From the NCBI GenBank assembly GCA_018433245.1, contig JAHDRN010000001.1, positions 186,001-250,000 on the forward strand: a stretch of 64,000 bases of DNA, in the 5' to 3' direction. Position numbers and translations under genes: made by a program. Under the pieces are notes generated by a model. That model did not search any database and was not told the origin of the DNA. It saw nothing but the letters and a program-made list of their open reading frames with translations. This DNA comes from Candidatus Proruminimicrobium quisquiliarum. Lineage in GTDB: Bacteria > Elusimicrobiota > Endomicrobiia > Endomicrobiales > Endomicrobiaceae. This document shows, piece by piece, positions 20,348 to 60,193 of this stretch (positions within the stretch are counted from its first letter, which is position 1; each line of letters opens with the position of its first letter).

Positions 20348-21412
20348 ATGGGGAAAACATATAAAATAGCTCTTTTGCCGGGTGACGGAACAGGTCCTGA
20401 AGTGTTGAATGAAGGCGTAAAAGTTATAAAAGCAGCCGGTCAAAAAACAGGCGTTAGTTTTGAATTTGTAAATTACGATTTGGGCGGAGAAAGATATAAA
20501 AAAACCGGAGAAATCCTTCCTGATTCAATGGTTGAAGAATTTAAAAAATTTGATGCTATGTATCTTGGAGCTATCGGACATCCGGACGTAAAACCCGGTA
20601 TTCTTGAAAAAGGAATTCTTTTAAGGCTCAGATTTGAGCTTGACCAGTATATTAATTTAAGACCGGTAAAACTTTATGAAGGCGTTGAATGTCCGCTTAA
20701 AGGAAAAGAGCCTAAGGATATAGATTTTATCGTCGTAAGAGAAAACACCGAAGGTTTGTATGTCGGGTCCGGCGGTTTTATGAGAAAAGATACTCCCAAT
20801 GAAGTAGCTATTCAGGAGTCTATTAACACAAGATTCGGCGTAGACAGATGTTTAAAATATGCTTTTGAAGTGACTCAAAAAAGAAATAAGGATAATAAAC
20901 TTACCCTCTGCGGAAAGACTAACGTTTTAACTTACGCTTTCGGTTTGTGGGAAAGAGCTTTCAGAGAAATGGGAGCAAGTAAATATCCTAATATTAAACT
21001 TGATTATACTCACGTTGACGCAACATGCATGTGGATGATAAAAAATCCCGAATGGTTTGATGTTATAGTTACCGACAATCTTTTCGGTGATATTATAACC
21101 GATTTGGCTGCTATGATTCAGGGCGGTATCGGAATTTCGGCAGGCGGCAATATTAACCCGGAAGGCGTTTCAATGTTTGAACCTATGGGCGGCTCGGCTC
21201 CGAAATATACGGGACAAAACGTTATAAATCCTCTTGCCGCAATCAGCGCAGGCTCTATGATGCTTGATACTATCGGACTTACGAAAGAAGCAAAGATGAT
21301 AGAAGACGCGATTGTTAAAGTTTTGGCAAGCGGAAAGGTAAAGAGTATGGCGGCGGGAAGGATGGGGATGGGGACGTCGCAGGTTGGGGATCTTATTGCA
21401 AATTCACTATAA
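20348..21412 (+). CDS. leuB: 3-isopropylmalate dehydrogenase
   Basis: NAD-dependent oxidative decarboxylation of 3-isopropylmalate. The 354-residue protein has LLPGDGTGPEVLNEG at the N-terminus, the substrate-binding LRLRFELDQYINLRPVKL, VVRENTEGLYVG, and the metal site VTDNLFGDIITDLAAMIQGGIG. The C-terminal SMFEPMGGSAPKYTGQNVINPLAAISAGSMML (in pieces) is the cofactor-binding region. Isocitrate or tartrate dehydrogenases share the fold, but the operon context fixes the role. It is the last gene of the leucine operon; palindromic element copy A follows. Confidence 0.93.
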   Translation: MGKTYKIALLPGDGTGPEVLNEGVKVIKAAGQKTGVSFEFVNYDLGGERYKKTGEILPDSMVEEFKKFDAMYLGAIGHPDVKPGILEKGILLRLRFELDQYINLRPVKLYEGVECPLKGKEPKDIDFIVVRENTEGLYVGSGGFMRKDTPNEVAIQESINTRFGVDRCLKYAFEVTQKRNKDNKLTLCGKTNVLTYAFGLWERAFREMGASKYPNIKLDYTHVDATCMWMIKNPEWFDVIVTDNLFGDIITDLAAMIQGGIGISAGGNINPEGVSMFEPMGGSAPKYTGQNVINPLAAISAGSMMLDTIGLTKEAKMIEDAIVKVLASGKVKSMAAGRMGMGTSQVGDLIANSL

Positions 21413-21434
21413 AATATAGCGGTTTCACATTTTT

Positions 21435-21512
21435 GCCTACAACTTTGTAATTGCAAGTCTCATGTACCGTTTCACTTTCGTACACGTCAACTTGCAATTA
21501 CTTTGTTTCGGC
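21435..21512 (+). repeat. Palindromic element, copy A
   Basis: Perfect 12-bp arms GTAATTGCAAGT (21447-21458) and ACTTGCAATTAC (21490-21501) enclose a 31-nt loop holding a 27-bp core (21459-21485) that is 25/27 identical to copy B at 59982-60008. The core contains ATGTACCGTTTCACTT and its own TGTAC/GTACA ends. Outside the arms the bases are weakly paired (GCC 21435-21437 with GGC 21510-21512). A TACTT..TTTCGGCT flank (21499-21513) is also shared in outline with copy B. The arm sequences of the two copies are unrelated. It lies between leuB and the atypical gene at 21554. Confidence 0.75.
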
Positions 21513-21553
21513 TAAAACTGAGAAGTCTTATGTTGTCCTAGATAGGAGGTAAA

Positions 21554-22483
21554 ATGAATTTTTTAGAGTTTGCTGAAAAGGTCATAAAAGAAGAAAACAA
21601 ACCATTAACCGATAAAAAAATTTGGGAAATAGGACAATCAAAAGGATATGATAAAGAATTAAATAGTGAAGGTAAAACACCTTGGAAAACAATAGGTGCT
21701 AGAATTTATGTTGATATAAATAACAATAAAAATTCTCGATTTATAAAAGTATTAAAACCAACAAGATTTTTTTTGAAAGGTTTAGTCTATAGTGAAAATC
21801 AACCAAGTCAAAATATAGATAATGAAGAAAAAAAGGATAGTGAACAAATTTCATATGATGAACGCTCTTTACATAAATACTTATCTTATTTTGTTTTTAC
21901 TCATAAAGAACAAGGAATTTATACAAAAACAATTTACCATGAAAAATCTAATAAACAAGACAAGTATCAGGAGTGGATGCATCCAGATATCGTTGGAGTT
22001 GATTCAATAATAGAAAATATTAGCGATGAAGTTGTTGATTTTACAGGTATTAAACCTAAATTGTTTTCTTATGAAATAAAAAAAGAATTGACTTCTGCTA
22101 ATTTGAGAGTATCATTTTTTCAAACAGTCTCAAATTCTTTATGGGCTAATGAAGCTTATTTAGTCGCACCTGAAATTGATGATGATCCAGAATTCCAAAA
22201 AGAATTAAAGAGATTATCTACTACTTTTGGAGTTGGGATTATTGAATTAGATTTAGATGATCCAGATAATTCAAAGATTTTATTCCCATCTATTCAAAGG
22301 GAAAATGTTAATGTTGAAACAATGGATAAATTAGCTGAAAGTAATCCTGATTTTAAAGATTTTTTAAAAAGAGTTAATAACGATTTTAAAAACAAAGAAA
22401 TAATAAAAGAAAAATATGATAAAATTCCAAACTACGATGATATTGCCAATAGAAATGGTATAGGAAAATCTAAAAAGGCATAA
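21554..22483 (+). CDS. HARE-HTH domain protein with nuclease-like C-terminal domain
   Basis: Residues 1-75 (NFLEFAEKVIKEENKPLTDKK, then TPWKTIGARIYVDI and RFFLKG) match the HARE-HTH winged-helix domain found in restriction endonucleases and RNA polymerase delta subunits. The C-terminal part (about 115-250) resembles the COG2958-type region. It contains HPDIVGVD and, about 30 residues on, FSYEIKKEL, compatible with a PD...ExK nuclease core, then TVSNSLWANEAYLVAP. No methyltransferase is adjacent, so an orphan restriction-like or DNA-binding role is only inferred. Base use looks more AT-rich than its neighbours, and it interrupts leu and asd genes next to a palindromic element, suggesting acquisition. 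GATAGGAGGT precedes the ATG. Confidence 0.6.
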   Translation: MNFLEFAEKVIKEENKPLTDKKIWEIGQSKGYDKELNSEGKTPWKTIGARIYVDINNNKNSRFIKVLKPTRFFLKGLVYSENQPSQNIDNEEKKDSEQISYDERSLHKYLSYFVFTHKEQGIYTKTIYHEKSNKQDKYQEWMHPDIVGVDSIIENISDEVVDFTGIKPKLFSYEIKKELTSANLRVSFFQTVSNSLWANEAYLVAPEIDDDPEFQKELKRLSTTFGVGIIELDLDDPDNSKILFPSIQRENVNVETMDKLAESNPDFKDFLKRVNNDFKNKEIIKEKYDKIPNYDDIANRNGIGKSKKA

Positions 22484-59909: not shown

Positions 59910-59943
59910 AACTATCTCTCCTTACTTCTTATTTTATTATAAC

Positions 59944-60050
59944 GGATTTAATATTTGGGCTGCACTCTCGTATTTTGCTTCCTTATGTACCGTTTCACTT
60001 ACGTACACCGCGGTCGCAAAATACTTCGGTTCGCTCCAAATATTAAATCC
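59944..60050 (-). repeat. Palindromic element, copy B
   Basis: Outer arms of 15 bp (GGATTTAATATTTGG, 59944-59958; complement at 60036-60050) and inner arms of 9 bp (GTATTTTGC, 59970-59978; GCAAAATAC, 60016-60024). They are separated by 11-nt internal loops on both sides and enclose a 37-nt loop with the 27-bp core (59982-60008). Copy A is at 21435-21512. Both inner arms begin GTA and end TAC, but their middles are unrelated, so pairing is conserved while sequence is not. It sits in the 59910-60193 gap, which otherwise holds no gene. Confidence 0.75.
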
Positions 60051-60193
60051 TAACGACAAAGACCAAAAACATTGCACTTCGCACAAAATCTTGCTAGTCT
60101 TAACGATACCTCAGTATTCTATTAAATTTTTAGCCATAAAGGAAGAAAGAGTTTATTAAAATACAAAATTTATGATAAATAAATTCTTTTATA

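Follow-up and report, generated by a model that had tools for sequence, protein, structure and literature searches.

A family of folded palindromic elements with covarying arms spans the phylum Elusimicrobiota

Palindromes dispersed through bacterial genomes are usually viewed as selfish or neutral. The REP and BIME elements (GTAG and CGTC families) are dispersed extragenic palindromes of 20-40 bp with a GTAG/CGTC tag (PMC3733652). They lie mostly downstream of genes in tandem or convergent spacers, include many near-inverted pairs and are suspected to be of mobile origin (PMC3733652), features that recur in the elements described here. The present elements also share features of the bcr1-bcr18 repeats of the Bacillus cereus group, which are MITE-like intergenic repeats of about 150 bp with a conserved secondary structure, often located in UTRs (PMC3446304, PMC2267715), and of integron attC sites, which follow an ORF, combine variable sequence with conserved structure, contain unpaired spacers and have one strand that folds better than the other (PMC2727003). 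For the Endomicrobia, a comparative study from 2024 mentions transposons and CRISPR (PMC11257099), but a text search of that study returned no such element. No paper naming the family was found in the literature searched, which is not proof that none exists. Here, we analyse a window, meaning the whole stretch of 64,000 nucleotides taken from the Endomicrobiaceae genome (rumen-type Elusimicrobiota) of Candidatus Proruminimicrobium quisquiliarum (G000), in which a pair of palindromes belongs to a previously unnamed family of folded elements spanning the Elusimicrobiota. The family adds a class that is missing from the annotation of this uncultured phylum.

The initial annotation of the window had reported two palindromes at positions 21435-21512 and 59944-60050, and both are present there. 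As it had described, they have a 27-nt core in common, in which 2 positions differ, and different pairing arms (GTAATTGCAAGT/ACTTGCAATTAC for copy 1, GTATTTTGC/GCAAAATAC for copy 2). The second copy has an additional outer arm of 15 bp (GGATTTAATATTTGG/CCAAATATTAAATCC), and a weaker outer arm of copy 1 had been overlooked (Table 1). A 20-nt core pattern, allowing up to three mismatches, has 2 matches in the window versus 0.02 expected and 9 in the whole genome, while the reversed control has 0. On either strand, the predicted folding of both copies is much stronger than that of dinucleotide-shuffled sequences (z -3.6 to -6.4 for DNA), none of which equalled it. Copy 2 is flanked by a 496-aa ORF and by a NifU-like gene on the minus strand that starts near 59910.

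Table 1. Positions of the two elements, their parts and neighbouring features in the window.
Feature	Position	Strand	Basis and remarks
Element copy 1, full extent	21410..21536	+	Covariance model R1, 120.4 bits, E 1.9e-23; directly 3' of leuB stop codon
Copy 1 outer stem, left arm GGTTTCACATTTTTGCC	21421..21437	+	Imperfect pairing with 21510-21527
Copy 1 internal loops and 3-bp step, left side: TAC / AAC / TTT	21438..21446	+	AAC pairs with GTT 21505-21507; loop columns nearly invariant; step pairs covary
Copy 1 variable stem, left arm GTAATTGCAAGTC	21447..21459	+	Double-sided changes among copies in 13/13 pairs of the helix
Copy 1 conserved apex: TCA + TGTAC CGTTTCACTTTC GTACA	21460..21485	+	Core pattern matches and nine-copy alignment
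Copy 1 variable stem, right arm ACTTGCAATTAC	21490..21501	+	Copy check and common fold
Copy 1 conserved internal loops, right side: TTT / GTT / TC / GGC	21502..21512	+	Alignment, loop columns
Element copy 2, full extent	59933..60059	+	Covariance model, 125.6 bits, E 1.3e-24
Right-end fragment of another subfamily (CACTTCGCACAAAATCTTGCTAGTCTTAA)	60075..60103	+	19 nt downstream of copy 2; right-half HMM, E 4e-4
leuB (isopropylmalate dehydrogenase)	20348..21412	+	PF00180
HARE-HTH (restriction-associated) gene, between leuB element and asd	21554..22483	+	PF05066; missing at that place in G001

Nine copies from the same genome align almost without gaps and fold alike, and from these a covariance model (R1) was built. 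The initial annotation had staked its reading on the existence of further copies in this genome, and about 38 copies in all were found (E<1e-6), next to 45 in a second species of the genus (G001) and 58 and 72 in G009 and G018 of genus g9 (Candidatus Ruminimicrobiellum). R1 found no copies in several close genera. With a broader model, R2, copies are detected in 29 of 90 genera and in 54 of the 295 Elusimicrobiota genomes that were sampled; the 241 genomes of the phylum that have no match serve as specificity control. Copies at the level of the order and the phylum have the same loops and unrelated arms, with up to 55% G+C. A scan of viral contigs was empty, and Rfam 15 contains no family matching on the window; across 16 loci only one tRNA was reported at E<=1. 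One element lies on a contig filed under Gastranaerophilales (L100, JAQUYY010000128.1), most likely an Endomicrobia contig of the same sampling project that was binned wrongly.

The element is about 105-115 nt long, followed by an A/C-rich right tail, and its termini by alignment are TATARCG and TTTAACGAC. From the outside in, the fold comprises a variable outer stem, two pyrimidine-rich loops around a 3-bp step, a variable stem of 13 bp, a third loop and an apical GTAC hairpin. The left end TATARCG leads into the outer stem of about 17 bp, which is variable, and the loop TRC/TC; the step AAC/GTT, which covaries, is followed by the loop TTT/TTC and the fully variable 13-bp stem. The inner part consists of the loop TYA/CNNC and the apical TGTAC/GTACA, in which G-C is in places replaced by T-A or A-T, around a variable apical loop. 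The right end is GTCTTTAACGAC with the A/C-rich tail. In the nine copies, 90% of 360 stem cells pair and 29 of 40 pairs have double-sided changes, with no shuffle coming near, and pairing falls to 40-46% when the partner is slid by one column. Double-sided compensatory cells number 481 in 65 rows, 352 in 32 distant rows and 700 in 71 copies from across the phylum, counts that none of 500 shuffles reached in any of the three sets. The family is a ready-made natural data set for covariation. The proposal of the initial annotation that the arms covary through selection on a folded strand is strongly supported by these 700 compensatory cells, together with the conservation of orthologs and the change of arms at leuB described below.

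Many copies are conserved in place. In 17 orthologous pairs (10 G000/G001 and 7 G009/G018, drawn from copies that still match the model) the elements are 95.1% identical, compared to 85.5% for the adjacent coding sequence and 68.9% for its third codon positions. Divergence is 3-5% in the stems and 0% in the AAC/GTT step, against 24-25% in the columns just outside. Copy 1 and its ortholog in G001 are identical at 106 of 108 positions, while the leuB genes are 81% identical. Since the arms are unique to their locus in at least 9 of the 17 pairs (best non-ortholog identity 0.60-0.82), homogenisation between copies cannot explain the identity of orthologs. Many resident copies are under purifying selection, which the initial annotation had not foreseen. 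As the copies are nearly unchanged between species, the fold itself seems to have a job at the ends of genes. This bears on the rather unlikely alternative of a pure mobile element, a MITE- or REP-like parasite that needs its fold only for transposition, so that pairing is selected at each mobilisation and residents decay. The changes between orthologs, mostly one-sided (33 versus 1 double Watson-Crick change), and those between paralogs, mostly double, are what such a parasite would leave; however, orthologs with locus-unique arms are 87-98% identical where neighbouring third codon positions are 57-85% identical, which would not be expected of a decaying parasite. The same counts bear on an explanation without any selection, in which template switching within the hairpin rewrites one arm from the other and so maintains complementarity. 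Double changes far outnumber single ones in paralogs, and G-T and A-C mismatches are equally rare, as this process would produce, but the 33 single changes against 1 double in orthologs indicate that arm correction is not frequent. Template switching should also have removed the asymmetric internal loops that persist across the phylum, and it leaves the low divergence in place unexplained, so that we regard it as hardly credible.

The leuB locus indicates a change of arms in place. An element is present at the 3' end of leuB in 10 of 16 genomes examined, from genera g1, g4 and g9. Within g9 it occurs in two classes, I and II, which are 10-11 double Watson-Crick changes apart and have one apical loop in common; this loop was found at no other element examined, which points to a change of the arms at the locus itself. 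The arms of class II resemble those of genus g1. The leuB genes of G156 and G018 are 95% identical, and the difference therefore reflects either a burst of coordinated change or the exchange of an old allele. Loci other than leuB are rarely common to different genera, indicating a high turnover of element sites over longer times.

The left end of the element usually abuts the edge of a coding sequence, mainly just 3' of the stop codon. In G000, of the 28 copies that follow a gene on the same strand, 21 start between -12 and +13 nt from the stop codon of that gene; some copies provide this stop with their own left end, TATAR. Tandem spacers contain 42 sense and 18 inverted copies, convergent spacers 28 and divergent spacers only 2, in counts to which G009 and G018 contribute partly duplicate sites, and in two convergent gene pairs of G000 the spacer is little longer than the element. 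In genus g9, 16 of 40 tandem copies are inverted, often so that their left end adjoins a start codon or RBS. Small recurrent hairpins (AAATCGCTTYGCGATTT and TTTTTGCTTYGCAAAAA) follow many g9 elements in the right flanks of G009 and G018 (e.g., L083:2800-2844). A rule tying orientation to the replication strand was considered, as 30 of 36 copies in G000 follow the GC skew. However, convergent copies do so only 10:3 and genus g9 has no such rule, so the direction of genes explains most of this orientation.

This placement raises the possibility of a structured RNA in mRNA 3' ends, acting on termination, processing or stability, whose fold is preserved by compensatory evolution. The start of most sense copies within about 15 nt of a stop codon, the bias among spacers and the tight convergent pairs are in line with such a role, and because most copies lie in probable 3' UTRs, conservation in place would fit it too; the transcribed bcr repeats offer a precedent (PMC3446304). 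Double changes of the transition type are enriched (about 50% versus 30% expected by composition), which also fits an RNA, although transition-biased mutation would give the same result. In functional RNA stems, G-U pairs are normally tolerated. In the reliable columns of these elements, G-T mismatches are about as rare as A-C mismatches (26:28 and 23:39). Furthermore, since the loops are pyrimidine-rich on the strand shown, the opposite strand is purine-rich in its loops and folds better, which is the case in 63/64, 58/58 and 32/32 copies (folded as DNA), and this strand is antisense to the upstream gene in 42 of 60 tandem spacers. An intrinsic terminator is not apparent, as neither the right end GTCTTTAACGACAA nor the reversed left end GTCGYTATA has a U-tract; there is no Rfam match, and two of the g9 orthologs inverted against an RBS are likewise conserved. 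On balance an RNA role seems possible but less than probable. The lack of a G-U excess and the antisense fold lean towards action at the DNA level, or towards avoidance of a strong fold in the mRNA.

The initial annotation had named REP/MITE-like mobile elements or recombination sites as candidates; the mobility is supported by nested arrays and by a version with terminal inverted repeats (TIRs) and target-site duplications (TSDs), and the linked transposase or recombinase was not found in the genomes searched. Nested arrays consist of a left fragment, a full copy and right fragments in one orientation throughout. Left fragments lie directly upstream of full copies, and 12 of 15 right fragments in G000 are found directly 3' of a full copy of another subfamily; one array combines a full copy with five right fragments (L075:3320-3800). 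At L041/L178, one species has a copy A; in the other, a copy B precedes the right end of A and the right flank is shared, as left by the partial replacement of a resident copy by another subfamily. Opposite A/B combinations occur in the two species at L019, the site of window copy 2, and at L171: the orthologous site of copy 2 in G001 has a full copy of the fragment's subfamily and then a right fragment of the subfamily of copy 2. Close species gain and lose copies, and some losses leave 10-20 nt of the left end. In the distant family f19 (G178, G083), two copies of the element are joined in a 276-bp unit with the order TIR, inverted element, element, TIR, in which the TIRs of about 31 bp vary between copies yet are each self-complementary, and which is flanked by TTA/TAA duplications (e.g., L215:1479-1754). 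These arrays, gains and losses and the f19 form speak for mobility in the past, and the last could mean that the fold serves mobility only, as a pure parasite would have it. A gene-bearing 276-bp unit was sought in G178 and G083 and none was seen, with contigs breaking in the repeat. The Y1 tyrosine transposase (PF01797) is missing from G000, G001, G004, G009, G011, G018 and G019, and where order-level genomes do have it, the genes listed for it do not adjoin elements; reverse transcriptase (PF00078) is missing from G000, G009, G018, G004, G019 and G020. That no transposase was found also counts against a pure mobile element. A candidate cargo transposon between two inverted copies in G009 was rejected, as its content is ordinary cellular genes and the inverted pairs have no common spacer sequence.

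Genes gained beside the elements would fit an integron-like system, in which the elements would be folded single-strand recombination sites. In G001, asd directly follows the element, so the defence-like HARE-HTH gene was gained exactly 3' of the leuB element in the window; an HNH-like ORF, called by eye from the sequence, has the same pattern 3' of another element (G000:C6:69482). The position after an ORF stop and the better-folding antisense strand point the same way, and attC sites likewise have unpaired spacers and a variable terminal structure (PMC2727003). However, the integron integrase (TIGR02249) is above the cut-off in 0 of 22 genomes, where the hits are ordinary tyrosine recombinases as in 14 of 14 control genomes, and the ends RYYYAAC/GTTRRRY are missing. 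Gene gains between G009 and G018 are mostly away from elements, and we consider such a system very improbable. Clusters of same-strand element copies had suggested cassette arrays, but the roughly 200-aa genes clustered there are outer-membrane beta-barrel paralogs, and gene gains are mostly unlinked to elements. In one region (L082, G018:C26:114227-116959) the paralogs alternate with near-identical elements, as if co-duplicated. An element also lies 3' of the stop codon of an XerC/D-type tyrosine recombinase gene in both species of this genus (G000:C1:39086-40200, L079; G001:C71:18339-19301); downstream of the G000 element come two right-half fragments, which start exactly at the hairpin tip.

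We give about an even chance to the reading of these sequences as non-coding structured palindromic elements of mobile origin, similar to REP and bcr elements, that are kept in place by selection on their fold. A putative protein may recognise the element through the GTAC apex and the asymmetric internal loops, which are nearly invariant, while the arms would act as spacers, for which any sequence that pairs may serve. The folded form might act at gene ends as an extruded hairpin or cruciform or as a single-strand hairpin, and its role could be control of local topology or of the end of transcription, as in REP/BIME elements. That the action takes place on DNA in a REP/BIME-like manner, with the loops read by a putative protein at gene ends, we judge nearly as likely as not to be correct. 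A narrower version, which we put forward only tentatively, holds that they are phylum-specific folded single-strand DNA sites, conserved in place as a system of the chromosome, with a putative protein of their own reading the conserved loops while the arms drift freely; functionally they would be analogous to attC or REP but would rely on neither IntI nor RAYT. The conservation of many resident copies far exceeds that of adjacent genes, and unrelated stems carry the same loops across the phylum. Whether dispersed palindromes have a function, and on which strand, can now be tested directly by comparative genomics and a search for the loop-binding protein.

Compared to described systems, the element lacks the defining features tested for REP/RAYT, attC and retro-mobilised repeats, and in the genomes searched no RAYT, integron integrase, reverse transcriptase or Rfam family explains it. 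Unlike REP/BIME palindromes, it is about 110 nt long, has three conserved internal loops and no GTAG/CGTC tag, and occurs in copy-rich Endomicrobiaceae genomes without a Y1/RAYT gene. It differs from attC in that its ends, read from alignments, have no R'' RYYYAAC and R' GTTRRRY boxes, and there is neither an integron integrase nor cassette arrays; no gene cassettes were found between sites, where the neighbours checked are mostly ordinary cellular genes and indels between close species are mostly unlinked. The f19 form has the features of a TIR/TSD MITE (IS5/PIF-Harbinger-like, with TWA targets), and its TIRs themselves vary by copy. The Endomicrobiaceae element stands alone, with no evident TIR and no clear duplication; the empty sites were too imprecise to define one. 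The bcr repeats have been described for one species group, whereas the present family is found phylum-wide and its copies have little arm sequence in common.
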